Below are positions 384 through 23,889 of a DNA stretch of 56,487 bases, in pieces. A model generated the notes under the pieces. That model was not told where the DNA came from. It ran no database searches and saw only the letters and a program-made list of their open reading frames with translations. The stretch covers positions 1 through 56,487 of the forward strand of contig CAIMLR010000044.1 in NCBI GenBank assembly GCA_903842345.1, read 5' to 3'. A program made the position numbers and the translations under genes. Each line of letters begins with the position of its first letter. The stretch's first letter is position 1. The DNA comes from an uncultured Myxococcales bacterium (GTDB lineage: Bacteria; Myxococcota_A; UBA9042).

Positions 384-2006
384 TCAAAACGCCAGCGTCG
401 CACGCAAAGCCGGCCCGCGCCCGCGATCTGCATCCGCGAACCGATACTGCGCATTCACCTCAACCCACGCCGGCGGCGCATGATACCGATCCTCCCCAAA
501 CCAAGCCCGCAAGCTCAATCCCGGTCCAATCGCATCCACCAACGCGTCGCGCGCCGCGCTGTCATAATCCACCGCCATCAGAAAGTGCGGATACACCGTC
601 AACCGATTGTACCCCGGCATCGGTACCGCCAGCCCGTAGCGGACCTCCGTTCCCACCAGCAGCCGCCGCGCGTTCAAGTAGTACGCCGCTTCAGCATAGA
701 CCTGCCAGCTCTGCCAGCCCTTGCGGTCCACGCGCAAGTCGGTGCCGTCGCCCGTTGAATAGCCGATGCGAAACAACCAGTCGTTCTCAGCGTAGCGCCC
801 CACGGCGAAGAGGCGCTCAGCGGTCAGGGCGATGTTCTGCGTCGCCAAGGGCTTGAACCGGATGCCGAGGGTCTCTTGCGTGGTCTGGAGCCCGACCGGG
901 CCAGCGACGCCGTTGCGGAAATTGAGATAGCTGCGCACAAAGAACTGCACCGTCCTGCCGTCCCGGTAGCCGATGACCGGCGGCTGCCAGAAGGCCTCGA
1001 CGCCGCCCTGCCAGACGTTGAGCGCGCCCGCGTGATACGGCGTGCCGATGAGCATGCCCCAGCGGCGCTCCAGACCCTCGATTTCCCGGCGATAGCCGTA
1101 CATCCGCTGGTCGCTGAAGCTGTGCTCGAATTCCGCGAGGTCCAGGCAGAAGCGGAAATAGCGGCTCGCCTTGGCGTTGTCGTTCAGGCGTTTGGCGGCA
1201 TAGGCCGCGTCGGCAAAGTGGAATGCTTTGCCTGAGCCGTAGGCAAAACCGCGTTCAAAAGCCGCCAAGCCAGCCGCGTCGTCGTGTTGGCGCAGGTAGG
1301 CGTAGCCGAGGTTGAGCTGCTTGTCGCCCTTGGCGTCGGCGACGGCCTGCAGGGCATCGCCGAGGAGCTTTTCACCGGCCTTCTGGAATTCGTCATCAGC
1401 GGCTTCGCGGATCAGCCAACGCGCCGTCGCGACTGCGGCGATGCGGTCATGTGCCGCGAGTTGCGCGCGCCCCAAACGCAGGCGCACGGGTGCATCCTGA
1501 CCCGCGCCGAGCCGTTCAAGCGCGGCGACCGCACCGGGTGCATCACCGGCGGCCACGGCGCTGTCGGCTTCAGCAAAGGCGAGATTGCGCCGCTGATCGG
1601 GTTGCCACGCCGTGCCTTGCAGTGCGCGGCCAAAGGCTGCCTGCGCGGCCTTGAATTCCCGCAGCGAAAACATCAGGTAGCCGGTCTGCGCCCAGAGTTC
1701 AGCGTCGTCGGGAAAACGCTCCGCCAGTTCTGCGGCCAGCTGCTTGGCGTCCGCCGACTTGCCAGCGTGGACGAGCGCGTCCAGCAGCGTGCGTCCCAGC
1801 CAGGCATTGCCCGGATCGCGTTGGTACGCCGTGCGCGCCTGCGCCTCGGGCGACTCCACAGTCGCGGCGTCAGTCCTCGCATTTCCAGGAGCGGCGTTGT
1901 CCTCAGACCATGCGCGCGCCGGTGTCAGCAGAAGCGCAACGTGCAGGGCGACGCCCGCCAGGACACGCCGACATTGCGGCGTCGCGCAAAATGCTGGCAA
2001 GCTCAA
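384..2006 (-). CDS. nfrA: NfrA-like outer membrane exopolysaccharide protein (TPR + NfrA C-terminal domain)
   Basis: 540 residues. A hydrophobic export signal (about 1-33, ending near ARAWS) is followed by TPR-like helices (about 50-300) and a C-terminal region (about 315-540) with the pattern of the phage N4 adsorption protein A family: QNIALTAERLF, NDWLFRIGYS, GTDLRVDRKGW, FGEDRYHAPPAW. In E. coli NfrA is an outer membrane protein that exports the polymer made by NfrB and serves as the N4 receptor. The start is TTG, overlapping the stop of the nfrB-like gene by 4 nt (TTGA), which supports coupling. Family assignment is firm; the polymer exported here is inferred. Confidence 0.85.
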   Translation of the reverse strand: MSLPAFCATPQCRRVLAGVALHVALLLTPARAWSEDNAAPGNARTDAATVESPEAQARTAYQRDPGNAWLGRTLLDALVHAGKSADAKQLAAELAERFPDDAELWAQTGYLMFSLREFKAAQAAFGRALQGTAWQPDQRRNLAFAEADSAVAAGDAPGAVAALERLGAGQDAPVRLRLGRAQLAAHDRIAAVATARWLIREAADDEFQKAGEKLLGDALQAVADAKGDKQLNLGYAYLRQHDDAAGLAAFERGFAYGSGKAFHFADAAYAAKRLNDNAKASRYFRFCLDLAEFEHSFSDQRMYGYRREIEGLERRWGMLIGTPYHAGALNVWQGGVEAFWQPPVIGYRDGRTVQFFVRSYLNFRNGVAGPVGLQTTQETLGIRFKPLATQNIALTAERLFAVGRYAENDWLFRIGYSTGDGTDLRVDRKGWQSWQVYAEAAYYLNARRLLVGTEVRYGLAVPMPGYNRLTVYPHFLMAVDYDSAARDALVDAIGPGLSLRAWFGEDRYHAPPAWVEVNAQYRFADADRGRGPALRATLAF

Positions 2007-3910
2007 GGACGACCCGGTTCCAGACTATCCACCGGCGCTGCCGCCGCCACCCAGGCAGCGACTTCATGGTCACACGCGACAACGTACGCAACGTGCATTC
2101 CAGTCACCGCGCGGAGGCGTTGCGTGACGGTTGCATCCGGTCGGGACGCCACGGCGACCTGCAGCGTATCCCCCGGCGCGCGGGCAAACGGAACCACTTC
2201 ATGGCGCCGAATGAAGTCCGCCGGGATCGCACCCGCCAGCGACTTGACGGGGCCGGTATCGCGCGCCACCCGCGGCAGATCCGCCTGTTCAGCGATCGTG
2301 TCCGCCAGCAGTTCAGGCGTCAGCCGTCCATCCAGCAGGAGCGCTTGGCCCAGCCGCATACCCAGCGTGCGCTGCCGCTGCATCGCCGCCTCCAGCTCAA
2401 CCGCCGTAATCGCGCCGCGCTCCACCAGCATGTCGCCCAGGCGCCGGTGATGGCGCGCCAGCTCGGCGTTGGACGGAAACGTGTGCTTCGTCTTGTCCCA
2501 CGCGATCGGAACGCCGCTCACAAGGTGGCGAATGTACTGGTGCCACGCCCGCGACACAGCGGCAAAGTTGATGAAGTTGTTGAAGACCGTCCGCGGCAGG
2601 CTCATCAAGCCTTGCTGCAAACCATTCAAGCGGCTGACAAAATACACGCGCTCCAGCATCCGGTTGGTCAGCAGGGCGATGTTGACAATCAGGACGGGCT
2701 GAAGCCACGCGCTGAAAATGACAAGGCGCGACGCTGCGGGCCCGGCAAAGTGGCGGTCGTCCAGCAAGGTGACCGCCAGCGTGTTGGCCAGGACGAAGTA
2801 GGCGAGCACGGAGAACGGCGCCGTGACGATGCCTTTGCGGTCGCGGAAGAACATGTAGCGGGTGAGCAAGCCGCCCTGCCACTTCAGCTGCTCCCAGCCC
2901 AGGAACGCGATGCCGAGGATCCAGCGCGCGCGCTGCCGGTAGGCGGCCTGAAACTCGGAGGGAAAGTACTCGCACGTCGCCAGCAGGCCATTGGCCGTCG
3001 CGGACCGCTGCCACCACATGCCCGGCTGGCGGGTGCGCATGCGCCGGATGGGAAACCGCGCGAACGTCTGCCGCGTGAAGCCGTTGGCGGCCAAGCGGTA
3101 GCTGAAATCGTAGTCTTCCGTGAGCGTGCTGGTGTTGAAGACCCGGCCGTCATTGGCCTCCATCATCGCGCCGATGGCGTGGCGACCGTAGCAGAGCGCG
3201 ACGCCCGCGCCCGGGACGGTGCCCGTCAGTCGCTGGCGCACAACCAGATCCTTCTGGTGCGTCTCGCTGAAATCGTCCAGGTACGTGCCGCCGACCCACG
3301 CCGGGAACTTCAGCTCGAGCGACATCACGGGCAGCTGGATGAGGTCGAAGTCATCGATCTGGTCGTTGAAATACTTGAGCTCGAGCGGATGGATCACGTC
3401 TTCGCAGTCGTGCATCAGCACGCCGGCAAAGCGCATCCCGTGCTCAGTCTCGTGGGCGACGATCTCGCGCAGGATCCAGTTCAGGCAATCGGCTTTGCAC
3501 GTCGGACCGTCGGCGCCAACCGTCGCGCGCCGGATGTGCGCGGGATCGCGCGCGACCATCTTGTCGGCTTCAGCCGTCGTCGCCGCGTCATTGCGATACG
3601 TGCCGAGGAAGACGACGTAACGGTCGTAGTCCAGCGTAGCCAGCGTGTTTTCGACCATGTGGGCGATGACTTCCGCCTCCTGCCACGCCGGCACCATGAT
3701 GGCGAACCAGCGCTCCTCGCGCGCCCGGAGCGACTCCGCGGTGATATTCGGCGCGCGTTGGCGTTTGATGACGACGCGGTGGAACTCGCCCGCCCAAAAA
3801 CACGCGTCGATGAACAGGTCGTCCAGCCCGCTCAGCAAAATGACGAACGCGGTGACAACGATCAGCCCGTTCAGCACGTCAAAGTAGAGGGACCAGGGCA
3901 CGTGAGTCAT
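2003..3910 (-). CDS. nfrB: NfrB-like inner membrane glycosyltransferase with C-terminal MshEN c-di-GMP domain
   Basis: 635 residues from ATG 3910 (a TTG at 3922 is the alternative). An N-terminal membrane segment is followed by a family 2 glycosyltransferase core with DCED (DxD-type), TLTEDYDF (TED-type) and RQRARWILG (QxxRW-type) motifs, then further membrane helices. The C-terminal part carries two MshEN-type half motifs, RLGDMLVERG and RLGQALLLDG, each followed by a leucine/glutamine-spaced helix; this domain binds cyclic di-GMP in MshE and NfrB. Expected role: c-di-GMP-activated synthesis and inner membrane export of an exopolysaccharide, handed to NfrA. Lies 123 nt after the DUF2334 lipoprotein gene on the same strand. 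Confidence 0.9.
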   Translation of the reverse strand: MTHVPWSLYFDVLNGLIVVTAFVILLSGLDDLFIDACFWAGEFHRVVIKRQRAPNITAESLRAREERWFAIMVPAWQEAEVIAHMVENTLATLDYDRYVVFLGTYRNDAATTAEADKMVARDPAHIRRATVGADGPTCKADCLNWILREIVAHETEHGMRFAGVLMHDCEDVIHPLELKYFNDQIDDFDLIQLPVMSLELKFPAWVGGTYLDDFSETHQKDLVVRQRLTGTVPGAGVALCYGRHAIGAMMEANDGRVFNTSTLTEDYDFSYRLAANGFTRQTFARFPIRRMRTRQPGMWWQRSATANGLLATCEYFPSEFQAAYRQRARWILGIAFLGWEQLKWQGGLLTRYMFFRDRKGIVTAPFSVLAYFVLANTLAVTLLDDRHFAGPAASRLVIFSAWLQPVLIVNIALLTNRMLERVYFVSRLNGLQQGLMSLPRTVFNNFINFAAVSRAWHQYIRHLVSGVPIAWDKTKHTFPSNAELARHHRRLGDMLVERGAITAVELEAAMQRQRTLGMRLGQALLLDGRLTPELLADTIAEQADLPRVARDTGPVKSLAGAIPADFIRRHEVVPFARAPGDTLQVAVASRPDATVTQRLRAVTGMHVAYVVACDHEVAAWVAAAAPVDSLEPGRP

Positions 3911-4033
3911 CTCAATCTGCAAATCCTTGCACTGGCGTCGCGGAGTCGGAGCGGTCGGCTCCGTTGGGTGCGGTCGAGCCGGCTAGCCTGCCTCGGGGCA
4001 CGGCACGGCGAGACGCGGCGACGCGCGACCAAG

Positions 4034-5815
4034 CTACAGCGCGCTCGCGGCGACGAACTTGTAGCCCGCCGCCTTGATGCCCGTGACGATCGCCTGCAGC
4101 TGCGTCAGCGGGTAGTACGGATGGAAGAAGAAGCTGGCCACGCCGTCGCGAATCACCAGGTTGTTCTGCGCCGTCGCGACGATGTCGGCAGGCAAGCGCG
4201 GCGGGTGATTGTTGTAGGCCAAGGGCTCGTAATTGCCGAGGTTCTCCGGCTTGAGCTTCCAGCCGTACACATCCGTCACGGTGAACGGGTAGAAGAGGCC
4301 GATGCTGTGCTGCGCCGTCGGCGGGTTGATGCCGAGGTCGCCGCCAAAATAAAGGCCACGGTGGTAAGCCGTTGCGAGCACGCCGCGAATCGCCTTGGAG
4401 TCGACGGACGAGCCAGCGTAGTGCGGGTATTCAAAGATGGTCGGCGTCGTGAATCCGGCCGCCTTGAGCGCCGCGAGGCCGCTGTTCACGCGGCCGACGG
4501 CCCACGTCGCGGAGTCGCTCGGCACGGGACCGTCGTACACGACGTTGTTGGTTGTCGTGTCCACGTGGGCGATATAGAACTCAAAATCATCCGCGCTGAT
4601 GCCGGAATACGGATTCTTTTGCGTGCCATACTGGTGCGTATAGCCGTGCATCACGAGCGTACCGCCGTGGCTCGTCGCGTATTTAATCTGCGTGACCATT
4701 TTCGGCCGGTCGGTCCATTTCACGGTCGTCGGGACGCCGCCGTTGTCGATGCCGAGCGGATCGGTGTACAGCGGGATGATCGCGACGCTGAACGGCACAC
4801 TCTGGCTGTAGAGGTAATCGACGATGGCCTTGAACGCGACGGGATCCTCAACCGGGCTGACATCCTCCAGCCGCACGAGCGCGCGATGCTGCGCAACCGT
4901 GGTCGGCGCCAAGGTGTCAAAAAGCAGATCGCAGAACGCGAGATAGCGATCGTTGTGGTCGATGTAGGCGAACGGCACTTCGCCAAAATACGTCAGGTTC
5001 GACGAGCGCACGGCCCACGGCAGCGTCGTACCATCGGCGCGCGACGCGGTCGCCAGCGTCGTCACCTTGGTCGCGTCAAACGGGCTGAACTGCATGATGC
5101 CGGCGCCGTTGGTCGGATCGCGGGTCAATGCGGTGCTGCGGTAGGTCACTTTGCTGATGGAGGTCACGTCGAACGCCCACGGGTTGTAGCCGTATTTTGT
5201 GGCGAACGTCGGCGAGCGATTGGCGAGCTGCCAGATGTTGTCGTAAATCCAGATGACCGGAACCGTCGTCGTGAGGACGTCGTCCAGGAACGCGACCGGC
5301 AGCGGTTCGTCATACGTGGAGCCGATGTAGATGACCGCCTTGTACTTCGCGATGTCGCCGACGACGTAATTCACAACGGGCTTGCTGGCCGTGACGCCAA
5401 AATGGCTCGCGAGGTTGACCGCGGCGATGCCGTACAATTCGCCGAGCCAGCCATAGGCGCCCGTGCTGTCGTAGAGCACCAGCGTGCCAGCCGGCGTCGT
5501 GGCGAATTCCAGCGCGGTTTCCGCCGGACGCGTGTCGAGACCGCGATCCTGCGGCACCAGACGATGGCGGCCTTCATTGATCAGCGGCGCCTGGCCAAAA
5601 TCGACCGGAAACGGATTCAGGGTCGGCTGCGCGTGATTGCCGACGACGGACACGGCGATCGGCTGAGCCGCAGCGGCGGGGGCGGCAGGCGCGGGCGCCT
5701 CTTCCGTCGTCGCGAATTTGTGATTGTGATCGACATTGGGAATGTCGTAGGTCGCACAGCCCGAAAGCGCGACAACAAACGTGAAGACAGCAAAATTCGC
5801 GATGGCCCGTTGCAT
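4034..5815 (-). CDS. DUF2334 polysaccharide-deacetylase-like lipoprotein
   Basis: 593 residues from ATG 5815, preceded by AGGGGGA. The N-terminus has a short signal and a clear lipobox (ALSGC), so the protein is probably lipid-anchored outside the inner membrane. The C-terminal half matches DUF2334, a NodB-related fold: RLEDVSP holds the metal-site Asp type motif, and MHGYTHQYG a His-x3-His. DUF2334 proteins occur in c-di-GMP-controlled exopolysaccharide loci of Bacillus (YdaL) and Listeria. Placed directly upstream of the nfrB/nfrA-like pair on the same strand, so it probably modifies the polymer, for example by N-deacetylation. Enzymatic activity is inferred. Confidence 0.8.
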   Translation of the reverse strand: MQRAIANFAVFTFVVALSGCATYDIPNVDHNHKFATTEEAPAPAAPAAAAQPIAVSVVGNHAQPTLNPFPVDFGQAPLINEGRHRLVPQDRGLDTRPAETALEFATTPAGTLVLYDSTGAYGWLGELYGIAAVNLASHFGVTASKPVVNYVVGDIAKYKAVIYIGSTYDEPLPVAFLDDVLTTTVPVIWIYDNIWQLANRSPTFATKYGYNPWAFDVTSISKVTYRSTALTRDPTNGAGIMQFSPFDATKVTTLATASRADGTTLPWAVRSSNLTYFGEVPFAYIDHNDRYLAFCDLLFDTLAPTTVAQHRALVRLEDVSPVEDPVAFKAIVDYLYSQSVPFSVAIIPLYTDPLGIDNGGVPTTVKWTDRPKMVTQIKYATSHGGTLVMHGYTHQYGTQKNPYSGISADDFEFYIAHVDTTTNNVVYDGPVPSDSATWAVGRVNSGLAALKAAGFTTPTIFEYPHYAGSSVDSKAIRGVLATAYHRGLYFGGDLGINPPTAQHSIGLFYPFTVTDVYGWKLKPENLGNYEPLAYNNHPPRLPADIVATAQNNLVIRDGVASFFFHPYYPLTQLQAIVTGIKAAGYKFVAASAL

Positions 5816-5988
5816 ATTCCCCCTGATCTCAGACAGCTGATTGCCTTTGGGCAGACTTCCCAACCGGCGATGACGCTAACAGAATCAGAACATTGCGCAA
5901 CCCCAACTGGGCGGCGACGGCCTTGGCCATTGTAAAGTTTCATGCACGGCCAACCGGGTCAACATCCAGGTCCGCGAACGACGCGGTG

Positions 5989-7836
5989 CTAGAGCGAACG
6001 CGCGCACCGAAATCCGCTCGCCCCGTCACGGGAATTGGGCAATCGGCTGGCACGCGCCGCCGACCGCGTGGCCGTGCCCGTGTCGCTCCAGCCACCGCCG
6101 CGTACGACCTTGAGGCCATCCGGGCTGGCGATCGGCCCGACGGGATCGGTCGCGGTGACCGCCGAATAAAGGTCGTACCAGTCTGCGCACCATTCGTTGA
6201 CGTTGCCGGCGAGGTCGCACGCGCCCTGCCCCGTGTTGCCGGCGACCCGGGAGCACGGCGACAAGGGACCGCCGCCACCGCAGCCGCCGCCCGTGCCGTC
6301 GTCGAATACGGCCAATGTGCAATCGACCGCCGCGTCGCCCCACGGCCACGCCTGAACGAGCCCGGCGCTGCGGGCCGCGTATTCCCATTCGGCTTCCGTG
6401 GGGAGTCGCTTGCCGGCCCACGCGCAATAGGCTGCCGCCTGATACCAATCGACGCAATTGATTGGCTGCGTTTCCATGCCAATGACATTCCAATTACAGG
6501 AAGCGGAAGTGCTTGGCGCTGCGCAGGAAAACGCGCTCGTGTTGGCGGTGCTGCATTGCTGATCGGCGCTCAGGGTGGCGAAATAGACCGCGTATTGCTT
6601 CGCCGTCACTTCCATCTTGTCCAAAGCGAAAGCCGCGAGAAGGACGGCGTGTTGCGGATGTTCGTTGGCGTCCCCTTCGCCCGCCGACGCGCCCATCCAG
6701 TACGTTCCGGCGGGCAACGCCACCATCGCGACCGGGTCGTTCTCGACGCAGAATTGGCTTGCGTCGCAGACAGCGCCGGTGCCACAGGTCGCGCCGACTG
6801 GCAGCGCCACCGACGCGCATACGCCGGACGCGCACGCCTCGGAAGTGCACGGGTTGCCGTCGGACGGGCAGAGCATCGCGCCGCCGGCCACGCAACTCCC
6901 GCCGGCGCAAGCGTCGCCCAGTGTGCACGCATTGCCGTCGTCGCAGGCGCCCGGCGCGGGGCCATGGCTGCACCCGTTGGCGGGTAGGCATGCATCCAGC
7001 GTGCAGCTGTTGCCGTCGTCGCAGGAGGTCAGCGCGCCAGCGAGGCAGAGTGCGCCGCCGCACGCATCGCCCGTCGTGCACGCATTGCCGTCGTCGCAGG
7101 CACCCGGCTGGCCGACGTTTGTGCAGCCGACGATCGGGTCGCAGGCATCCGCCGTGCACGCATTGCCGTCGTCGCAATCCGCTGGCTGACAGGCACCGCC
7201 ATCGACTGCATCCGCGCCCGCGTCGTCGGCCGTCACATCCGCCGGCGGCTGCACCTCGCCATCGGCCACCGCGTCGACAGTCGCGGTGTCCACCGTTGCG
7301 TCATCGGCATCGGCCACCGCGTCGTCGGGCGTTGCCGCGTCGGCATCGGCCACCGCGTCGTCCGGCGTCACCGCATCGGCGTCCGCGACCGGCGCGTCCG
7401 CATCCGCCGCGCCGTCGGCCGTCACGTCCTCGGCATCCGCGACCGGCGCATCGCCCTCAGCATCCGCCGCCGTCGCGTCAGGAGGCAGCGCCGTGTCGGA
7501 GCCGCCATCGGCCAAATCAGCGACGGCGTCGAGCGTGTCGCCGGCATCGGCAGGACCGTCGTCAACCGCGTCCGTCGCCGTTTCGCCATCGGCCAGGACC
7601 GCATCGGCGCCATCGGGTTGCGCATCCTCGACCGGGCCGGCATCGCCATCCAAGCCATCGGGTAGCACGTCAGCAGCGTCCGCCAGCTGAGCGTTCTGCC
7701 GCTCTTCCGCGGTGGCGTACTGGAACAGATCGTCAGCGGGCATCCTGGTGCAAGCCGACGCCAGCAGCAGAAGGCCAAGCACCGCGGCGATGCCCATCCA
7801 GTCCATTGCGCGCCTCACGCGGCGGCGTCCCTGCAT
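5989..7836 (-). CDS. Lipoprotein with Asp/Ala-rich linker, Cys-rich CDDGNACT repeats and SUMF1/FGE-like domain
   Basis: 615 residues. The start is taken at ATG 7836 because it overlaps the upstream TGA by one base (TGATG). Order: lipobox (LLASAC), a long Asp/Ala-rich low-complexity stretch (about 40-210), several C-x-CDDGNACT-type repeats (about 215-350), then a formylglycine-generating-enzyme-like fold starting near VALPAGTYWMG with KRLPTEAEWEYAAR, GNVNEWCADWY and VVRGGGW. The usual pair of catalytic cysteines after RGG is missing (WSDTGTATR), so it is probably not a formylglycine-generating enzyme but one of the binding or structural members of the superfamily. Export is inferred from the lipobox. 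Confidence 0.85.
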   Translation of the reverse strand: MQGRRRVRRAMDWMGIAAVLGLLLLASACTRMPADDLFQYATAEERQNAQLADAADVLPDGLDGDAGPVEDAQPDGADAVLADGETATDAVDDGPADAGDTLDAVADLADGGSDTALPPDATAADAEGDAPVADAEDVTADGAADADAPVADADAVTPDDAVADADAATPDDAVADADDATVDTATVDAVADGEVQPPADVTADDAGADAVDGGACQPADCDDGNACTADACDPIVGCTNVGQPGACDDGNACTTGDACGGALCLAGALTSCDDGNSCTLDACLPANGCSHGPAPGACDDGNACTLGDACAGGSCVAGGAMLCPSDGNPCTSEACASGVCASVALPVGATCGTGAVCDASQFCVENDPVAMVALPAGTYWMGASAGEGDANEHPQHAVLLAAFALDKMEVTAKQYAVYFATLSADQQCSTANTSAFSCAAPSTSASCNWNVIGMETQPINCVDWYQAAAYCAWAGKRLPTEAEWEYAARSAGLVQAWPWGDAAVDCTLAVFDDGTGGGCGGGGPLSPCSRVAGNTGQGACDLAGNVNEWCADWYDLYSAVTATDPVGPIASPDGLKVVRGGGWSDTGTATRSAARASRLPNSRDGASGFRCARSL

Positions 7837-8954
7837 CAAAACTGCCATGCGACCGCCAATCCCACCGGAACGGGTCCGGGAACGAGTGCGACGTGTCCGG
7901 GCGACCGCAGGATCAGGAATGCGCCGACGCCCGCAGCAGCAACGCCGACACCGCCAAGAGCCAGCGCCGTGACCACGTGGCTGTTGACGATGTGCACCCG
8001 GTCCGCCGCTTCTGCGCGTGAAATGTCCTGGATTTTGCCGTTGGCACTGACGCGGAGCTGCACCTCCAAATCCGCCTGCTGGCTGTGCGTCCAGATGTAG
8101 GAGCCCAGGCCGACCAACGCCACCGCCCCGCCGATCTTGACGAGGGTCCAGCCAATTGCCGCTGGATCGTCGTCCTTGGGCACCTCCGCCACGGTCTCCG
8201 GCTTCGGCGCAGCTTTGGGCGACGGCGCTCCCGCAGCGGACGTGCCCAGCCGCCGTCGGAGCGCTTCCAAACGCGTGACCGCCTCCGAATACGACGGCGC
8301 CGCGGGCGAAGCGCGTTTGACGTAGTCCTCCAGATGCCCCGCCGCCGCCTGCCATTGGTGCGCTTCCTGTTCCGCCAGCGCGGCCTTGAACAGCAATTCG
8401 TCGTATCGATCGTGGCCCACCTGATAGGCCACCAGATAGAGCTTCGCCGCCTGCTTTGGGTCGCCCGCGCGCGCCGCCGCTTCAGCGTCCTGGATGCGCG
8501 TCATTTCCCGGACGCGCTCCACCGCGCGGAGCTGCGCGTCCTGAACCTGTCCGCGCTGGAAGGCGTCCAGGTAGACTTGTTGAACCTGCGCATCCAGCCG
8601 CTGACGCTCAATTTCGTTGACGAATGCCCGTGCGTCCGCCACGTGGTCGGTCGCTGAACCCGGGGCGGCGAGAAAAGCCCGATAGTGCAAAAGCGCCTGA
8701 TCCGTCTGGCCATCCTGCTGTTCAACGCGCGCCAGCGCCCAGACATACTCGGGACGCGGGTCCGTCTGGAGCGCCTCGCGGTAGCGTGCGATCGCCGTGC
8801 TGAGGTCGCCTGCAGCAGCCGCTTTTGCCGCCTCAGCCGCGACTTTGGCGACAGGGCTCTTGTTGGCCGCCTCCGCATCATGGGCGCACAAAAGCAGCGC
8901 CATGGCCAAGGCCAGGCAGCAAAGTTCAGCACAAAGAATGGGCAATCGAGTCAC
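7836..8954 (-). CDS. Exported TPR-like protein with two C-terminal membrane segments
   Basis: 372 residues from a GTG at 8954, with GGGGA upstream. The start gives a plausible signal sequence ending AHDAEA. Residues about 35-220 are Ala-rich helices with TPR character (AIARYREALQTDP; QALLHYRAFLAAP), followed by a Pro/Ala linker and two hydrophobic segments (WTLVKIGGAVALVGLGSYIW; VTALALGGVGVAAAGVGAFL). Proteins of this plan are common in Myxococcota, but I know no specific function. It is coupled to the SUMF1-like lipoprotein gene by a TGATG overlap, so the two probably act together at the envelope. Confidence 0.75.
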   Translation of the reverse strand: MTRLPILCAELCCLALAMALLLCAHDAEAANKSPVAKVAAEAAKAAAAGDLSTAIARYREALQTDPRPEYVWALARVEQQDGQTDQALLHYRAFLAAPGSATDHVADARAFVNEIERQRLDAQVQQVYLDAFQRGQVQDAQLRAVERVREMTRIQDAEAAARAGDPKQAAKLYLVAYQVGHDRYDELLFKAALAEQEAHQWQAAAGHLEDYVKRASPAAPSYSEAVTRLEALRRRLGTSAAGAPSPKAAPKPETVAEVPKDDDPAAIGWTLVKIGGAVALVGLGSYIWTHSQQADLEVQLRVSANGKIQDISRAEAADRVHIVNSHVVTALALGGVGVAAAGVGAFLILRSPGHVALVPGPVPVGLAVAWQF

Positions 8955-9068
8955 CTGACACGTCCCCGGAAAACGCGCGCACTTGCTCCTGGAGTCCCGC
9001 AGCGCCGGCGGGAGCAATAGCCGTTTCGCCGCGCGTGTCAAGGCCAGCGTCGCGCGACGCCGTCGGCG

Positions 9069-9097
9069 TTGACCCGTCCGGAGCGGACCGACATACT
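9069..9097 (+). promoter_or_regulatory. Sigma-70-like promoter for the 9123 lipoprotein
   Basis: TTGACC (9069-9074) and CATACT (9092-9097) are separated by 17 nt. They match the -35 consensus at 5 of 6 and the -10 at 4 of 6 positions. A GGGGG ribosome-binding site follows at 9113-9117, five bases before GTG 9123. Confidence 0.45.
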
Positions 9098-9122
9098 GGC
9101 GGCGTGATTCACGGGGGTTTGA

Positions 9123-10436
9123 GTGCGCGACAAGATGGACGGCGAGATGACACGGCACCAGTGGCCCACGACCGCGCGAATGGGCGCCTTCAGCGCGCTG
9201 CTTCTCTGCCTGCTGCAAGCCGCGTGCGGCGCGGATGCGACGATTGCCGGACCGTGCGATTTGGCCGCCTGCGACGATGGGCTGGCGTGCACGAATGACG
9301 GCTGCGCCAAGGATGGCAGCTGCATCCACACGGCGCGAACGGGCGCGTGCGACGACGGCAACGCGTGCACCAACGGCGACAGCTGCCAAGGCACCGTGTG
9401 CGCGGGCGCCACGACCGACTGCAACGACGCGTTTTCCTGCACCCAGGACGCGTGCGACAAGGCTAAAGGCTGCGTGCACATCGCCGGCGACGCCACCGCC
9501 TGCGAAGACGGCAACCTGTGCACGGACGACAAATGCGACCCTGCCGCCGGCTGCGTCCACGCCCCCAATGCCGCGACGTGCACCGACGGCAGCTTGTGCA
9601 CCTTGAACGATGCGTGCAGCGGCGGCACGTGTTTGCCCGGCGCGACAACGGTCGCGTGCGACGACAAGAATCCCTGCACGGACGACGCGTGCGCCCCAGC
9701 CACCGGCGCGTGCAGCCACCTCGCCAACAAAGCCGCGTGCGACGACGGCAACCCCTGCACCATCGGCGACGCCTGCGCGGCGGCGGCTTGCTCGGCGCCC
9801 TTGGACTGCACGTGCGCGGTCGCGGCCGGCCAGAAGCTCCCAGCGGAAGACTGTGACACGCCCGGCGACGACAACTGCAACGGCATCGTCAACGACGTCG
9901 CGGTCTGCGGCGCCAGCGTCTACAAGTTCAGCAGCGCGCCGGAATGCGGTGCGGTCTGCTACTACGACGAGGGCCACAACGTCGCCATCAACGGACCGGG
10001 CGGCGCTGCCAACAACGCTGGCTTTGACACGTTCGCCATCGGCGACCTGTTTGACGGCGTCCGCGGCGTCGACGATTGGGCCGCCAACCTCGGCAAGGGC
10101 GCCGGGGCGGAATGGGTCGCTTGGACCGCGCCGCTGCAAATCCTCACCGTGCAGTTCGCCAAGCCGCGCGACGTGGCGCTGGTGCACCTCGGACTGAACA
10201 ACAAGAAGGACGGCAGCGTCTCGCAGCCGCCGGAAGTGCAGATTCGCCTGAGCGTCGATGGCGTCAAGTGGTCGGCGCTGGCGTCGTTCAAGGTCGGCGA
10301 GACGCAACCGGCGATTCCCGCGGGCAAACGCGGCGACATCGCGCTGACGTTCCCGACGCAGACCGCGCGGTTCGTCGAGATTCGCTTCCTGACTCCGGGT
10401 TCGTGGACGTTCGTGGACGAAATCGACTTCGACTGA
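9123..10436 (+). CDS. Lipoprotein with Cys-rich CDDGNACT repeats and C-terminal discoidin-like domain
   Basis: 437 residues from GTG 9123, chosen for the GGGGG site at good spacing; ATG 9135 and 9147 are alternatives. The N-terminus contains a signal with lipobox (LLQAAC). Residues about 38-240 are a run of Cys-rich repeats of the form C-x-DGN-x-CT-x4-C, also seen in the 5989-7836 lipoprotein. The last 170 residues form a beta-rich module resembling F5/8 type C (discoidin) carbohydrate-binding domains: IGDLFDGVRG near the start and TARFVEIRFL near the end. Likely a surface protein that binds glycans or another envelope component. The specific ligand cannot be read from sequence. Confidence 0.8.
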   Translation: MRDKMDGEMTRHQWPTTARMGAFSALLLCLLQAACGADATIAGPCDLAACDDGLACTNDGCAKDGSCIHTARTGACDDGNACTNGDSCQGTVCAGATTDCNDAFSCTQDACDKAKGCVHIAGDATACEDGNLCTDDKCDPAAGCVHAPNAATCTDGSLCTLNDACSGGTCLPGATTVACDDKNPCTDDACAPATGACSHLANKAACDDGNPCTIGDACAAAACSAPLDCTCAVAAGQKLPAEDCDTPGDDNCNGIVNDVAVCGASVYKFSSAPECGAVCYYDEGHNVAINGPGGAANNAGFDTFAIGDLFDGVRGVDDWAANLGKGAGAEWVAWTAPLQILTVQFAKPRDVALVHLGLNNKKDGSVSQPPEVQIRLSVDGVKWSALASFKVGETQPAIPAGKRGDIALTFPTQTARFVEIRFLTPGSWTFVDEIDFD

Positions 10437-10441
10437 CCGCG

Positions 10442-11635
10442 TCACGCGCCGACGGGCGCCCGCAGGTCGCCCAGCATCCGCGCCACAATTCGCTCGGACG
10501 CATGGCCGTCGCCAAACGGATTCGGTCCCGCTTGGTACCATTCCGGCTGCGTTCCGGCGCGCGCGTGGGCGATCAAATCCGCCGCCGCGGCAAAAACCAC
10601 GTCCGGCTCCACGCCAACCAGCCGCCCCATGCGCGCCTCCACCACTTCTGGCCGCTCCGTCACGTCGCGCAACACCAGCAGCGGCTTGGCAAACGTGGGA
10701 AATTCCTCCTGCAGCCCACCGGAATCGCTCATGGCAAAATCCACCCGGCTCATCAGGTGCAGGAACGGCCGGTAGGACAGCGGCGCGACGAGGTGGATGT
10801 TCGGGACCTCCGCCATGAACTGGAACGCCTTGAGCTTGACCTCGGGATTCAGGTGATACGGGTAGATGAGGTGATGGTCCGGGTGCTGCGCCGCCAGCGT
10901 CCGCATCATGCCAAAGAAATCCGCAAGCTTCTGGCCGTGATTCTCCCGCCGGTGGATGGTCAGCAGCGCGAGCGTCTTGCCTTGACTGGCCTCGAACTTT
11001 GCCAGCGCTTGGGCCAACTCCGGCGCATCGTCGGGCAGCATGGCCGTCGCGTAATCCGTCGGCATCTTGCGGGCGCGCACGGACAGCAGCGTGTCGATGA
11101 TGGTGTTGCCCGTCAGCTCAATCGCCAATTCCGGCACGCGCTCATCGGTCAGGTTGCGATACGCAGCTTGCGTCGGCACGAAATTCCAGCGGGCAATCCG
11201 GCCGATCAGCTGGCGATTCAGCTCCTCCGGAAATGGCTCGTCCATATTGCCTGTGCGCAGCCCCGCCTCCACGTGCGCCACCGGGATCCGGTGGTAGAAC
11301 GCCGTCAGCGCCGCGCAGAACGCGGTCGTCGTGTCGCCCTGGACGATGACGGCGTCGTAGCTCTCCCGGCAAAACTCGCCGTCCAGCGCGTTGATCAGCG
11401 CGGACGTGAGACCCGGCAAATTCGGCCGCTGATTGTTGACCGCGAGCTGCCGGTGCTCGCCCAACTCAAACAGCTCTACGAGCCCGACGAGCAGCTCGCG
11501 ATGCTGCCCCGTGAACACGACTTCCGTCGTCACAACGTCCTGGAACTTGGCCAATTCGGCGACGACCGGGGCGAGTTTCAGGTACTCAGGCCGCGTCCCC
11601 AAAATGACGGCGACGCGCAGTTTCTTGGCATTCAT
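10442..11635 (-). CDS. wecB: UDP-N-acetylglucosamine 2-epimerase (non-hydrolysing)
   Basis: 397 residues, full length for the family. Interconverts UDP-GlcNAc and UDP-ManNAc in the cytoplasm. Family motifs are all present: GTRPE near the N-terminus, VQGDTTT, HVEAGLRTGN, PEELNR and TIHRREN, which together hold the UDP-sugar and the catalytic carboxylates and histidine, and the SDSGG/QEE segment near residue 300. It begins 33 nt after the GH113-like gene on the same strand, so the two probably share the promoter at 12859-12887. In E. coli WecB supplies UDP-ManNAc for the NfrAB polymer; the nearby nfr-like genes suggest the same job here. Enzyme assignment is firm. Confidence 0.95.
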   Translation of the reverse strand: MNAKKLRVAVILGTRPEYLKLAPVVAELAKFQDVVTTEVVFTGQHRELLVGLVELFELGEHRQLAVNNQRPNLPGLTSALINALDGEFCRESYDAVIVQGDTTTAFCAALTAFYHRIPVAHVEAGLRTGNMDEPFPEELNRQLIGRIARWNFVPTQAAYRNLTDERVPELAIELTGNTIIDTLLSVRARKMPTDYATAMLPDDAPELAQALAKFEASQGKTLALLTIHRRENHGQKLADFFGMMRTLAAQHPDHHLIYPYHLNPEVKLKAFQFMAEVPNIHLVAPLSYRPFLHLMSRVDFAMSDSGGLQEEFPTFAKPLLVLRDVTERPEVVEARMGRLVGVEPDVVFAAAADLIAHARAGTQPEWYQAGPNPFGDGHASERIVARMLGDLRAPVGA

Positions 11636-11668
11636 GTCGGAATTCCGGCTTGGGCGCGGGCGCCTGAA

Positions 11669-12799
11669 CTAGGGATGCTTGGGCTTGAACGCGCGGATGT
11701 ACTCCGCGGCGGATGGCGCCAATTCATACGTGGTGGCGGTCGGATGACCAATCGTGAACAGGGAAAAGCCCAAGAACTTGTTGGGATCCTGAACGAACGT
11801 CTCCAGATACGCGGTCAGATAATTCTTCTGGATATCCGCGTTGCGGTTGTCGCTCACCGCGGGATCCCACGGGTTCTGCGCGCCAAAATCGACCGAGGGG
11901 CAGCTCAATTCGCCAAAGAAAATCGGCTTGTGCCACTTGGTGTTCAAGGCCATGACTTCCGCGTAGACGTCCTGCTTGCGGTTGAATACCGTCGTGGAGC
12001 GCAGCGCGTTTTTCACGTCCGCGACCGTTGGCGCGATGGCCTCGCTCACTTCAAAATACGCGGCGATTGCGATGACGTCGACGGCGCCAAAGAGCGGATT
12101 TTCCAGCTTGGCGCGGTAGGCAGCCAGCGTCTCAGGCGCCCACGCGGCGGTCGCCCACCATTGCGTGCGGTAAATAATCTTGCCGTGGTAGACGCCGCGG
12201 AGATTCTTGACGAGCGCGATCCAGTTGGCGGATTGCGCCTCCAGCTTCACGAGATTGGACGCGACGTAGAGGCCCCACGTATTGGGGAATTCCTTGGCAA
12301 GCGCGGCGACGGCCTTGTTCCACGCGGCGAACCACGCGGCTTTGTCGGTCGGATTGAGATCGGTTTCGGGGACGTTGCCGTTGTCGATCCACGGATACGG
12401 CTCGATGATGTATTGGTACGCCGTGTTGGCGCTGACGACCTTCTTGGCGAATGCCAGGCTCGCGGCGTCGATTGTCACTTCGTGGCCGGTCGCGGCGGCC
12501 ATGTTCATGCGGACGGGCACGGTAATGGTGTCCAGGCCGAGGCGCTGTGCGTCGGCGAAGATGCGCGGCACATCGGTGACGTTCCAGGCGGAGACATTGC
12601 CGCCCTTGATGAAGCGGAGCGCGGCGGGCTGGGCTGCCGGCGCGGCGACCGCAGCGGCGGGCTTGGGCGGAACGGCCGCACCCTGGGCATGCGCGAGGGC
12701 CGACGGGAGACAGACGAGCAGCACGATCAGCGCCAGAGGGCGCCGGACGCGGCGATGGCGTGAAAAGTCGGGCCCTGCGAATTCAACAATCGGACTCAT
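11669..12799 (-). CDS. Exported GH113-like TIM-barrel protein, possibly lacking the acid/base Glu
   Basis: 376 residues from ATG 12799. A signal sequence (PLALIVLLVCLPSALAHAQG) and Pro/Ala linker precede a TIM-barrel domain with the pattern of GH113 (beta-mannanase family): MNMAAATG, a tryptophan-rich strand after VYHGKIIYRTQWW, and FFGELSCPSVDFGAQNPWD, which resembles the nucleophile strand (E-x-GY-S...PW). The segment where GH113 enzymes usually have GTEL reads VASNL, so the acid/base Glu seems replaced by Asn. It is the first gene of a two-gene unit with wecB and may trim, bind or release the polymer. Family call is good; activity is uncertain. Confidence 0.75.
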   Translation of the reverse strand: MSPIVEFAGPDFSRHRRVRRPLALIVLLVCLPSALAHAQGAAVPPKPAAAVAAPAAQPAALRFIKGGNVSAWNVTDVPRIFADAQRLGLDTITVPVRMNMAAATGHEVTIDAASLAFAKKVVSANTAYQYIIEPYPWIDNGNVPETDLNPTDKAAWFAAWNKAVAALAKEFPNTWGLYVASNLVKLEAQSANWIALVKNLRGVYHGKIIYRTQWWATAAWAPETLAAYRAKLENPLFGAVDVIAIAAYFEVSEAIAPTVADVKNALRSTTVFNRKQDVYAEVMALNTKWHKPIFFGELSCPSVDFGAQNPWDPAVSDNRNADIQKNYLTAYLETFVQDPNKFLGFSLFTIGHPTATTYELAPSAAEYIRAFKPKHP

Positions 12800-14508: not shown

Positions 14509-14658
14509 CAGAGCCTCCACCAGCGGCCGAAATGGCGGCCACCTTGGGATCATGATGCGTTTGCCGCGTGACAAAGGCAACCGCCACGGCATTCGGACGC
14601 TGGCGATCTGCCCCCGCAAACGGCTATGCTGCGGTTGGGAATGGCGCGGGAGGTTGCA

Positions 14659-17600
14659 GTGGTAAAGCGGATTTTGACGGCGGTGGTCCTGTCCTTGGGC
14701 GTGGCTTGCGCGCGCGCGCCTGAGCCCATGGATCGCCAGGCGCTGGACGACGCGTGGCAAGGTCCGGGCACTGCGTACAACCAGACGCTGGACGGCGCGG
14801 GCTTGGACCTGAGCGTGAAGCTCACGGACGCGGCGGATAAGCCGCTGACGGATGCCGCGATCGCGGATGATGCGCAGGCGTTGGATCTGCAGCAACTGGA
14901 CACGGCGGCGACGGACGCGGTGGCGGATGTGCCGCTGACCGATGGCCTCATCGATACCGCATCGCCTGACGTGCAGATCGCCGACACGCAGCCGGACACG
15001 CCGGTGGCGGATACGGGCGGCGATGCGTCGGCGTGGCCATCGGGCACCTTGACGGTGCAGAGCGCGTTCTCGCCCGACGGCAAGAACGTCAAGGTGCGCT
15101 TCAACAAGCCGGTCGATCCGACGACGGTGACGAGCCCCAAGAGCTTCTCCATCACGGACTCGGCGACGGGCACGCTGACGGTGCTGAAATCGGAAGTCGC
15201 CGCGGATCCGCAGTTCGTGACGCTGACGCTGGATCCGGCGCAGCCGGTCAACCCGAACCTGACCTACAAAGTGCTGGTCAAGACCATCAAGGCGTTTGAC
15301 GGCCAGAACATCAGCACGAGCCTGAACAAGGCGACAATCAAACGGACCGTGTACGTGTCCATCATGTGGCACCAGCACCAGCCGACGTACCTGGACCCGA
15401 TCGCCGACCAGCTGACCTCGCCGTGGGTGCGCAAGCACGCGACGAAGGACTACTACGACATGGCCGCGATTTTGCAGGGCTATCCGGACGTCCACGTGAC
15501 GATCAACATCACGCCGGTGATGCTGAATCAGATGATTCCGTACTACATCGACCGGCTGGCGCCGTTTGTCGACACCAAGAAGAACACCGTGGACGCGGCC
15601 GGCTTTTTGGCCAAGTGGAAGGGCCACACCGATCCGTGGATCGACCTGCTGCTGGAGCCAACGCCCGATCCCAAGACCGCGACGACCAAGCAGATTGGCC
15701 TGCTGTACGCGGATCCCTGGTCGTGCGTGTCGACGTCGCCGGTGCTGATGAACCGCTTTCCGGCGTATGCCGCGCTGCGCGACAAGAACCCGGCGACGCT
15801 GACGCAGGACGATTTTCTGGCGCTGAAGATCTGGTTTGAGATCGCGTGGTTTGACCCAGATTTCCTGCACGGTCCGGTGGCGCTGCCGACGGGCGACGTC
15901 GTGGATCTGACGGACATCATCGCCGCGTCGTCGCCAACCAACGCGACGTTCACGCTGAAAGTGCCGATGTCCGAGGCGCTGGCCAACCGGATCGTCGCGG
16001 AGGAAGTGAAGATCATCAAGGCGATCATTCCGATCCACAAGAAGCTCTTTTATGACGCGGCCTTGCACACGGGCCAGATCGAGATCGCCACGACGCCATT
16101 TTACCACCCGATCCTGCCGCTCGTGCATGACACGGAGCTGGAGGGCTACGGTCAGCCGTTTGATCCCAAGCCGGAGCCGCCGTTCCAGTTTCCGCAGGAC
16201 GCCGCGGCGCAGGTGGGCCGCGCGGTGGCGTTCTACACCAACATCTTTGGCCAGCCGCCGCGCGGGATGTGGCCGGGCGAAGGCTCGGTCGCGGAGCAAG
16301 TGATCCAGCATTTCCGCAAGTTCAACATCGACTGGGTCGCGACTGATCAGGCCGTGCTCGCGGCGTCCAAAGGCTATAAGCCGGGCGGCGCGACTGCGGA
16401 CGTCGGCGCAGCGCCGCAGGGACCGTGGCGGGTCGATACCGACAGCAATGTCGGCGCGATCGGCGATCCCGCGCAGGCGATGGCGATCTACTTCCGCAAC
16501 ACCAACATGTCCAACGACATTGGCTTCAAGTACCAGGGCATGGTCGGCACGGACGCCGCGGATGACCTGATCAAGAACGTCGCGTCCCAAGCGCCGAGCT
16601 TTGGCTCGCCGGACCGGGTGATCACGCTGGTCCTGGACGGCGAGAACGCGTGGGAGACGTTCAGCAAGGAGCACGACGGCAAGGGCTTCTTCATCGCGCT
16701 GTACAGCCGGCTGACGCAGAGCGCGGCCGCGGGTGAAATCATCTCCGTGACCGGCAGCGAGTATTTGCTGGGTAACCCGGCGCGCAATGTGCCGGCGCAT
16801 CCGCTCGCGGGCCTCAACGAGGTCGAACCGCTGTTCCCCGGCTCGTGGATCGGCGGTAATTTTGCCATCTGGATCGGCGAGACCGAGGAGAATACCGGCT
16901 GGGAGTACCTGCGCACCGCGCGGCTGGACCTGCAGGGTTCAGGCCTGGCGCAGCCCGATCCCAAGACGCCTGAGCCGGCGGATCAGACGAGCGCCGCGTG
17001 GCACGTCTGGAAGGCTTTTGACGAGATCTATGCGGCAGAAGGCTCTGACTGGTTCTGGTGGTACGGCAGCGACATGACCTCGCCGTCCAACGACGATTCA
17101 CCGTTTGACGCCGCTTTCCGCACGCACCTCGCGGGCATGTACGCGCAGATGAACGCGGCGCTGACGCTGGGCGGCAAGCCGACCGTGACGTTGCCGGACT
17201 TCAAGCCGATCATCCAGGCCAACCCGCAGGCGCCACAAGGGCCGCTGGATCCGCCGCCGACGATGGATGGCAACTTCACGCCCAACGAGTCGGAATGGTC
17301 GACAAAGGGCGGCTTCTTCTTTGACAGCGACACCGCCGGCGCGCTGGCCAATCCCGACGACTGGATCGCGACCGTCTACTACGGCTTTGGCACGTACGGC
17401 GGCAAGGACGGCCTGTTCATGGCCGTGCAGCACAACTTTGACCTGTCCAACGCGACGGGCGGACTCGCGGTCTACCTGTCCCAAAAGCACATCGTCAGTC
17501 TCACGACCGGGCAGGTCCAGGAGGATCCGGCGACGCTGCTCAGCCGCTTTGGCGATCAGATGACGTGGAAAGGCAAAGGCGCGGCGCGCGAGCTGTGGGT

Positions 17601-18318
17601 GCAATTGGCCGGCGGCGTCGCCACGCCGAGCTGGCGGAAGTCCGATGGCACCGGCGGCTGGGCGGCGATTGCGCCGACGGCGTTCAACGGCACCGTCGCG
17701 GGCCCAGTCAAGGGCGGCAAGCTGCTTGAAATCTTCATCCCGTACACGGACATCGGCATCGTCGCGGGCGATCCGCTGGAGGTGCAACTGTTGTTCTCGA
17801 CGGCCAACAAGACCGCAGATTTGGCGCCGTCGCTGGAGGCCAAGGTCTTCACGGACGACCCGACTTCCGCCGTCTTTGTCACGTTCACCTGCGATGTCTC
17901 TGAGAAGCAGATCGCCATCAACACGTTTGGCGACATCACGACGCCGACGCCGCCCAAGGGCAAGGGCATCGTCTACATCGCCGGCAACGACGCAAAATTG
18001 GGCATGAAGACCAAGTGGGTGCCCAACAAGATCGCGCTGCGCGACGACGGACTGGAAGGCGACGTGACGGCCAACGATCAGATCTGGACGATTGTCATGC
18101 CGTTTTCCAAGGGGACGGCGCTCAAGTACAAGTACACGATTGGCCTGCCGTCCAACGAAGGCCAGTGGGCCGGCACGGAGGAATTCCCGCTGACGGAGCG
18201 CGGCATCGCGATCTCCAAGGTACCGGCGACCAAGAAAGAGACGGTCGCGGATATCTTTGCCGACCGGCCGCAGCCGACGGGAACGCTGGGGCCAAAGACC
18301 GTGGTGACCGAGCAGTAG
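14659..18318 (+). CDS. GH57 family lipoprotein (alpha-glucan-active glycosidase)
   Basis: 1,219 residues from GTG 14659, which has GGGAGG at five bases; upstream ATGs at 14626 and 14641 lack a site. A signal with lipobox (LSLGVAC) and an Asp/Ala-rich linker (to about 125) precede an Ig-like module (about 130-230), then a GH57 catalytic domain: HQHQP near 238, MWPGEGSVAEQ with the nucleophile Glu near 541, LDGENAWE with the acid/base Asp near 659, and DWFWWYGSD near 795. The C-terminal 350 residues form beta-rich, DOMON or carbohydrate-binding-like modules. All catalytic motifs look intact. GH57 includes amylopullulanases and glucanotransferases; the exact substrate is not readable. Convergent with the MASE1 kinase gene. 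Confidence 0.9.
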   Translation: MVKRILTAVVLSLGVACARAPEPMDRQALDDAWQGPGTAYNQTLDGAGLDLSVKLTDAADKPLTDAAIADDAQALDLQQLDTAATDAVADVPLTDGLIDTASPDVQIADTQPDTPVADTGGDASAWPSGTLTVQSAFSPDGKNVKVRFNKPVDPTTVTSPKSFSITDSATGTLTVLKSEVAADPQFVTLTLDPAQPVNPNLTYKVLVKTIKAFDGQNISTSLNKATIKRTVYVSIMWHQHQPTYLDPIADQLTSPWVRKHATKDYYDMAAILQGYPDVHVTINITPVMLNQMIPYYIDRLAPFVDTKKNTVDAAGFLAKWKGHTDPWIDLLLEPTPDPKTATTKQIGLLYADPWSCVSTSPVLMNRFPAYAALRDKNPATLTQDDFLALKIWFEIAWFDPDFLHGPVALPTGDVVDLTDIIAASSPTNATFTLKVPMSEALANRIVAEEVKIIKAIIPIHKKLFYDAALHTGQIEIATTPFYHPILPLVHDTELEGYGQPFDPKPEPPFQFPQDAAAQVGRAVAFYTNIFGQPPRGMWPGEGSVAEQVIQHFRKFNIDWVATDQAVLAASKGYKPGGATADVGAAPQGPWRVDTDSNVGAIGDPAQAMAIYFRNTNMSNDIGFKYQGMVGTDAADDLIKNVASQAPSFGSPDRVITLVLDGENAWETFSKEHDGKGFFIALYSRLTQSAAAGEIISVTGSEYLLGNPARNVPAHPLAGLNEVEPLFPGSWIGGNFAIWIGETEENTGWEYLRTARLDLQGSGLAQPDPKTPEPADQTSAAWHVWKAFDEIYAAEGSDWFWWYGSDMTSPSNDDSPFDAAFRTHLAGMYAQMNAALTLGGKPTVTLPDFKPIIQANPQAPQGPLDPPPTMDGNFTPNESEWSTKGGFFFDSDTAGALANPDDWIATVYYGFGTYGGKDGLFMAVQHNFDLSNATGGLAVYLSQKHIVSLTTGQVQEDPATLLSRFGDQMTWKGKGAARELWVQLAGGVATPSWRKSDGTGGWAAIAPTAFNGTVAGPVKGGKLLEIFIPYTDIGIVAGDPLEVQLLFSTANKTADLAPSLEAKVFTDDPTSAVFVTFTCDVSEKQIAINTFGDITTPTPPKGKGIVYIAGNDAKLGMKTKWVPNKIALRDDGLEGDVTANDQIWTIVMPFSKGTALKYKYTIGLPSNEGQWAGTEEFPLTERGIAISKVPATKKETVADIFADRPQPTGTLGPKTVVTEQ

Positions 18319-23368: not shown

Positions 23369-23889
23369 GACGCCCGCGCCAGCTCGTGCGCCCACGCCAG
23401 CGGATTGCGCGCGCACAGGTGTTCGGGATACTGCGCCGCGGCCAGCGTCCGCTGGATCTCCGCCGGGCCGATGATCCGGATCTCCGCGTTCAGGTATTTC
23501 GCCAGCGCGTCGACAAGCTTGTGGTCCGCCTCGTTGGCCTCCGCCTCCGGGTCTGCGAGTTCGAGCACGACGCGTTTGCCGTCCATCTGCGCGCCCCGCA
23601 TCAACTCCGCATACCGCCCCGCCTGCTGGGAAAACGCGCGCGGCCGACTGCGCAAATCCCGCAGCGCCGCCATCAGGTCCAGGCACACCCACGCATCCGC
23701 GCTGTTCAGCATGCACGGCGGCCGCGTCGCGCGGTGTCCGTGCAAATCCAGCTTCGCCGGCAGCCTGCCGTGCAACTGCCAGCCCAGCAGCTCCAGCAGC
23801 CAGCTCTCCTGCACTTGGTCCACCGGCGGCAGGCCCGTGTCGCGCCGTGGCTTGCCCAGCGCCCGTGGAATGCCGTGGTTGTCGCTCAT
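23365..23889 (-). CDS. Unknown protein coupled to the ThiF-like gene
   Basis: 174 residues, start overlapping the GH31 stop and stop overlapping the ThiF-like start, both as ATGA. No signal peptide and no membrane segment. The sequence is mixed alpha/beta, with SWLLELLGWQLHG near 30, a Cys at 60 and another near 158, and a C-terminal half that alternates helices and strands (KRVVLELADPE; AEIRIIGPAEIQRTL). I do not recognise a family. Tight coupling on both sides suggests that it works with the ThiF-like protein, perhaps as substrate or adaptor, but it has no C-terminal Gly-Gly. Function not assigned. Confidence 0.75.
   Translation of the reverse strand: MSDNHGIPRALGKPRRDTGLPPVDQVQESWLLELLGWQLHGRLPAKLDLHGHRATRPPCMLNSADAWVCLDLMAALRDLRSRPRAFSQQAGRYAELMRGAQMDGKRVVLELADPEAEANEADHKLVDALAKYLNAEIRIIGPAEIQRTLAAAQYPEHLCARNPLAWAHELARAS

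Follow-up and report, generated by a model that had tools for sequence, protein, structure and literature searches.

An NfrAB-type exopolysaccharide locus of a Myxococcales bacterium linked to DUF2334, WecB, and GH113-like genes, with a partly de-N-acetylated ManNAc polymer as its probable product

The function of NfrB in Escherichia coli requires WecB and c-di-GMP (PMC8669469; PMC8669472), and the mutants D169A, D267A, W330A, L490A, L490/537A, and G491L of the E. coli protein have identified the six residues concerned as important (Junkermeier and Hengge; PMC8669469). The use of UDP-ManNAc by E. coli NfrB has been deduced genetically, the chemistry of the Nfr polymer (NGR, the phage N4 receptor) is still inferred, and YbcH is dispensable for N4 infection (PMC8669469). 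One passage of the same paper presents linkage between nfr and wecB as general and describes clusters in which wecB, diguanylate cyclase genes, or acetyltransferase genes accompany nfr, with DUF2334 and GH113 absent from that passage (PMC8669469). In C. difficile 630, GH113, WecB, and a CE4-like deacetylase accompany a BcsA/B-like pair, and the product of that locus has independently been proposed to be rich in ManNAc and partly deacetylated (Scott et al., 2020; PMC7710045); the c-di-GMP-controlled polymer of Listeria is a β-1,4-ManNAc chain with galactose (PMC5422440). A search of the available literature for DUF2334 together with exopolysaccharide, or for NfrB in Myxococcota, returned no papers.

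The DNA analyzed here is contig C44 of a 5.85-Mb Myxococcales MAG that is 96% complete; the whole contig stretch of 56,487 nt is referred to as the window, and the features of interest are collected in Table 1. The end of nfrA lies 384 bp from the contig edge, where the view of the locus stops. An initial annotation had described NfrA-like and NfrB-like genes with a 4-nt overlap, an MshEN domain at the NfrB C-terminus, a DUF2334 lipoprotein upstream of the nfr genes, and a GH113-like/wecB pair about 5 kb away, and each of these features was recovered, with Pfam matches of the five named genes that all exceed the curated cut-offs. The overlap reads TTGA on the minus strand, where nfrA starts from a TTG at 2006 and the TGA stop of nfrB ends at 2003; the nfrB reading frame is open from a TTG at 3922, and the ATG at 3910 is its likely start. 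The DUF2334 protein matches PF10096 with 171 bits and has the lipobox VVALSGC, and wecB matches Epimerase_2 with 305 bits (Pfam) and TIGR00236 with 346.5 bits (NCBIfam, cut-off 210). The wecB and GH113-like genes are spaced by 33 bp, and the pair lies ∼4.6 kb past the DUF2334 gene with one opposite-strand gene in between. The FGE-like, TPR, and discoidin genes (PF21114, 30.8 bits, Pfam cut-off 27, in the last of these) had been left unlisted, as had a second full copy on contig C34; with these three genes included, the set of eight genes forms one block. No Rfam RNAs, including riboswitches, were found in the window.

Table 1. Genes of the block in the window and two codons of the GH113-like gene. 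Residues of the DUF2334 protein are counted from position 5863 and those of the GH113-like protein from position 12859.
Feature	Position	Strand	Domains and predicted role	Family match
nfrA-like	384..2006	-	Sec signal, TPR, C-terminal NfrA beta-barrel domain; predicted outer-membrane export porin	PF13283
nfrB-like	2003..3910	-	GT2 polysaccharide synthase with C-terminal MshEN c-di-GMP domain	PF13641/PF13632/PF05157, PRK15489
DUF2334 lipoprotein	4034..5815	-	GATase-like N-terminal domain and CE4-like deacetylase domain	PF10096
FGE-like lipoprotein	5989..7797	-	Cys-rich CTDC repeats and FGE-sulfatase (SUMF1-like) domain	PF03781 (167 bits)
Exported TPR protein	7836..8960	-		weak TPR matches (Pfam)
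Discoidin lipoprotein	9123..10436	+	CTDC repeats and C-terminal discoidin/F5-8C-like (carbohydrate-binding type) domain	PF21114
wecB/nfrC	10442..11635	-	non-hydrolysing UDP-GlcNAc 2-epimerase, predicted UDP-ManNAc maker	TIGR00236
GH113-like gene	11669..12799	-	exported TIM barrel	PF22612 (63 bits)
Asn202 codon of GH113-like gene	12254..12256	-	end of barrel strand beta-4, acid/base position	
Glu317 codon of GH113-like gene	11909..11911	-	end of barrel strand beta-7, nucleophile position	

The NfrB-like protein matches GT2 in Pfam with ∼100 bits, MshEN (PF05157) with 39 bits (cut-off 23), and PRK15489 with 839 bits (NCBIfam, cut-off 537), and it contains the MshE-related c-di-GMP motif NF053729 (49.9 bits, NCBIfam cut-off 38); by sequence match, its MshEN domain resembles the solved N-terminal domains of MshE and PilB. 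Identity to E. coli NfrB is 38% over 616 residues, and the DxD (D172/D175), TED (T268-E269-D270), and QxxRW (Q330-R333-W334) motifs are invariant between the two proteins. Residues D172, D270, W334, L495, and G496 match E. coli D169, D267, W330, L490, and G491, and the sixth residue tested in E. coli, L537, is Ile in the myxobacterial protein. This retention of catalytic and c-di-GMP residues at five of six tested positions is consistent with the c-di-GMP-controlled synthase design that had been proposed for the locus. The NfrA-like protein (NfrA_C, PF13283, 141 bits) is shorter, at 540 aa vs. 990 aa in E. coli, and its C-terminal part shares 22% identity with E. coli NfrA. GGDEF has 10 matches in the genome, none of them on contig C44 or C34, so that neither nfr contig carries a diguanylate cyclase gene.

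The model of the GH113-like protein is a TIM barrel (mean pLDDT 66.8), and its best 12 Foldseek matches are all GH113 mannanases (E ∼1e-10). With the GH113 β-1,4-mannanases AaManA and BaMan113A it shares the fold and the nucleophile Glu on β-7 (Glu317, invariant in the nfr-linked GH113-like proteins), whereas the acid/base position on β-4 is occupied by Asn (Asn202) in 9/9 nfr-linked proteins, compared with Glu in 14/14 unlinked myxococcal relatives examined and in solved wild-type GH113 structures (some deposited BaMan113A entries have Ala). This replacement of Glu by Asn in the nfr-linked subfamily is new here, and because of it the classical double-displacement mechanism looks crippled. The protein may therefore have the polymer as a ligand and not as a substrate for cleavage, and chain binding or guiding is the simplest reading. 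A working hydrolase that shortens the polymer or sets it free in the manner of BcsZ or PgaB, with another acid or a substrate group replacing the Glu, is an unlikely alternative: the division between Asn in the nfr-linked proteins and Glu elsewhere weighs against it, as does general sugar chemistry, in which the acetamido group of β-ManNAc stands cis to the leaving group, where it cannot assist at C1. What such a hydrolase has in its favor is that Glu317 and the aromatic residues of the barrel are invariant and that exopolysaccharide operons commonly carry hydrolases (PMC7710045). E270 was considered as a relocated acid and rejected, since Glu is found there in some unlinked GH113 proteins too. 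The third nfr gene of E. coli, ybcH, encodes a DUF4434 protein, and DUF4434 is also a TIM-barrel family; kinship of the GH113-like protein with YbcH was rejected, as there is no profile similarity, so that a functional equivalence of the two proteins is only a suggestion. No YbcH (DUF4434) homolog was detected in the nfr loci by tblastn.

DUF2334, still a family of "unknown function," presumably includes YdaL of Bacillus and PssB of Listeria, and B. subtilis matched PF10096 in a control search. A sequence search found no solved relatives, and none of the papers found establishes an activity for the family. In a low-confidence model of the myxobacterial lipoprotein (mean pLDDT 63.7), the N-terminal domain resembles class-I glutamine amidotransferases, and the C-terminal domain resembles the CE4 deacetylases 4m1b, 2w3z, and 2cc0 (Foldseek E 2e-4 to 1e-3). 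The residues R331-L-E-D334, H406-G-x-T-H410, and H581 (FxFH) are invariant in 11/11 aligned proteins and are kept in G332, a distant relative, and D334/H406/H410 form a putative CE4-like D-H-H triad. These motifs fit a metal-dependent deacetylase, short of proof. A pure scaffold would need no such triad, and its invariance even in G332 makes it rather doubtful that the protein is a non-catalytic, chain-handling lipoprotein for export, as YdaL would be in B. subtilis exopolysaccharide production; that reading draws on the description of YdaLMN as all essential for production (PMC13274460), on the large GATase-like N-terminal domain, which has no catalytic role assigned, and on the lack of an established activity in the literature found. 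The earlier proposal that the polymer is modified outside the cell is supported by a DUF2334 protein that is exported and deacetylase-like by prediction, with the amendment that such modification would rest on DUF2334 and not on a hydrolase, because the GH113-like protein is without the acid/base residue. DUF2334 also occurs without neighboring nfr genes, once in G000 (C24) and in G032 (C131), and its substrate therefore need not be the Nfr polymer. With the deacetylase reading preferred here, the family gains a testable role.

A dedicated wecB is linked to the nfr genes, in agreement with its earlier assignment to the locus and as in other nfr loci described in the passage cited above (PMC8669469). 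Both nfr copies of the genome have their own wecB next to the GH113-like gene, 74% identical to each other, and the GH113-wecB pair outlasts rearrangement in other genera. Together with the generality of nfr-wecB linkage stated in that passage (PMC8669469), these observations make it improbable that the polymer is not ManNAc-based, with WecB serving another pathway and NfrB using a different UDP-sugar, even though the substrate of NfrB is unproven and a third, more distant WecB (35% identity) is encoded elsewhere in the genome, on contig C5.

The second complete copy of the eight-gene block, on contig C34 of the same genome, keeps the order GH113, wecB, discoidin lipoprotein (opposite strand), TPR, FGE-like lipoprotein, DUF2334, nfrB, nfrA, with gene-by-gene identities between the copies of ∼54–77%, and the identical order is also present in G035:C57 and G036:C92. 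The FGE-like and TPR genes belong to the block in genus g1 only; both are found at the matching position in loci L005, L021, and L023, where the TPR gene is 59–69% identical. Full-length orthologues of the discoidin lipoprotein occur in these three loci and in L024, L027, and L044. The block is rearranged in gene order and strand in the related genus g9 and in G032, where the FGE-like and TPR genes no longer belong to it; even so, DUF2334-nfrB-nfrA and GH113-wecB are kept together for the most part, frequently along with the discoidin gene. Among individual loci, G035:C33 retains DUF2334-nfrB only, G043 is without nfrA and wecB within the available stretch, and in G044 the GH113-wecB pair sits on a separate contig. 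A contig scan with NfrB as query returned three loci, all from Myxococcales MAGs that match the genomes surveyed as G035 and G036.

The survey of nfrB homologues for DUF2334 and GH113-like neighbors that the initial annotation had called for was carried out on related Myxococcota, with most of the loci compared belonging to a single family of MAGs. In all nine loci of this family whose NfrB is ≥54% identical, nfrB has the long DUF2334 gene as its immediate neighbor. The nfr-type GH113-like subfamily (E <1e-100) and the long DUF2334 subfamily (E <1e-200) have an identical distribution, being present in the same 8 of 379 Myxococcota genomes. NfrB is found in seven of these eight; in the remaining one, G032 (L044), the contig ends inside nfrA, and nfrB may be in the gap. 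Over the 22 genomes of the family, and with shared ancestry ignored, Fisher P values are 3e-6 for the association of the GH113-like protein with DUF2334 and 5e-5 for that of NfrB with DUF2334. Distant NfrBs of Myxococcota (37–40% identity) are mostly without DUF2334, and in G055, G261, G214, and G332, NfrB is paired with an adjacent BcsB. In G332, DUF2334, a TPR porin, NfrB, and BcsB stand in a row, so that the mixing of two known designs claimed for the present locus is visible there as well. The nfr, DUF2334, and GH113/wecB genes are thus one co-conserved locus, as had been claimed, and the absence of co-conservation in related genomes, named earlier as a refuting outcome, was not observed. 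That they are unrelated chance neighbors, as the ∼4.6 kb and the opposite-strand gene between DUF2334 and GH113/wecB might suggest, can be dismissed within the family, since the whole block is duplicated, the adjacency holds in 9/9 loci, the phyletic distribution is identical, and the association is retained through rearrangement.

The locus is probably a synthase-dependent exopolysaccharide system for a c-di-GMP-activated, partly de-N-acetylated ManNAc polymer. We infer a pathway in which WecB would convert UDP-GlcNAc to UDP-ManNAc, NfrB in the inner membrane would polymerize UDP-ManNAc upon binding of c-di-GMP to MshEN, and NfrA would conduct the chain across the periplasm and outer membrane. 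Outside the cytoplasm, the DUF2334 lipoprotein would de-N-acetylate the chain in part as it grows and leave a partly cationic ManNAc/ManN polymer, and the exported GH113-like protein would bind or guide the chain instead of cleaving it the way GH113 enzymes normally do. Anchoring of the chain at the surface may fall to the discoidin-type lipoprotein. A bolder proposal, put forward tentatively, is that the block represents a distinct class of synthase-dependent machine, in which an MshEN-gated ManNAc polymerase has its own extracytoplasmic DUF2334 deacetylase and a GH113 mannanase fold that, with its acid/base residue lost, has turned into a dedicated polymer-binding chaperone or length gauge, giving a cationic poly-mannosamine matrix in myxobacteria. 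For the E. coli Nfr polymer, the linkage of nfrB to wecB, deacetylase, and mannanase-fold genes provides independent genomic support for ManNAc as well as enzymes with which the linkage can be probed. The recurrence of the same accessory set around NfrB, around the BcsA/B-like pair of C. difficile, and with DUF2334 in Bacillus and Listeria points to a wider occurrence of partly deacetylated ManNAc polymers than has been assumed.

With E. coli NfrBA-YbcH and WecB, the myxobacterial locus shares the GT2 synthase with MshEN, the NfrA porin, the nfrB/nfrA overlap, and WecB as the predicted UDP-ManNAc supply, and it differs by the addition of DUF2334, the GH113-like protein, the discoidin lipoprotein, and a linked wecB of its own. 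The ydaJKLMN genes of Bacillus and pssA-E of Listeria have a DUF2334-type protein, a GT2 synthase, and c-di-GMP control in common with it; those systems use a degenerate-GGDEF receptor and BcsB, whereas in the myxobacterium MshEN is fused to the synthase and BcsB is absent, PF03170 having no match anywhere in the genome. PgaABCD and PelA-B, which combine a TPR-barrel porin, a glycosyltransferase, and a periplasmic deacetylase with a GH-like partner, offer a functional analogy, but PgaB joins CE4 and GH153 in one protein, and the myxobacterium has two separate proteins of different families. C. difficile 630 is a closer precedent than Listeria, as it is described with the same accessory set of GH113, WecB, and CE4-like deacetylase beside a GT2 synthase and with the same proposed product (PMC7710045); its machinery is Gram-positive and of BcsA/BcsB type with no outer-membrane porin, in contrast to the NfrB with MshEN and the missing BcsB of the myxobacterium, whose locus can be regarded by analogy as a Gram-negative, NfrAB-driven counterpart. 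The block thus brings together components that had been described one by one in E. coli, Bacillus/Listeria, and C. difficile.

The genome of the window's bacterium carries a second complete copy of the eight-gene block on contig C34, and this copy shares a purF-like flanking gene with the block copies of two related Myxococcota genomes (G035:C57 and G036:C92). The NfrB of the window copy is nevertheless closer to those of G035:C57 and G036:C92 (76% identity) than is that of the C34 copy (67%), and this discordance between flanks and sequence indicates that the block has relocated or recombined as one unit.

Additional long DUF2334 paralogues (57–65% identity) occur in this genome and in G032, where Cys-rich/PA-domain proteins adjoin them and nfr, wecB, and GH113 genes are absent from their neighborhoods. 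This genome encodes several exported Cys-rich proteins, of which the two inside the locus carry Dictyostelium-type CTDC repeats (CDDGNACT...). The GH57-type and GH31 proteins of the window lie beyond the exopolysaccharide locus.

Features of the window and compared loci
Feature	Location	Coordinates
Second block copy, compared with window 384-12799	L005 (G000 contig C34)	14000-33000
Exported Cys-rich proteins	Window	5989-7797, 9123-10436, 48685-56388
GH57-type protein containing Big_5 and starch-binding-like regions	Window	14626-18315
GH31 protein	Window	23889-26669
Long DUF2334 paralogue	L016 (G000 contig C24)	11056-12885
Long DUF2334 paralogue	L029 (G032:C131)	9122-10930
nfrB	L027 (G043)	4110-6230
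ybcH	L043 (E. coli)	2092-2982

The nfrB match in G043 is split into two pieces within a single open frame, and nfrA and wecB are absent from the stretch compared; the copy may be degenerating, or the assembly may be faulty here. Other Myxococcota (L034, L035, L033, and L038) have a larger NfrB subfamily of about 920–956 aa with an additional MshEN stretch; its partners are BcsB and a TPR porin lacking any NfrA profile match, and this combination is a second type of NfrB machine.

YbcH, encoded by the third nfr gene of E. coli, is a confident DUF4434 match (235 bits), an identity left undiscussed in the passages of the Nfr paper that were consulted, and could bind or trim the polymer.
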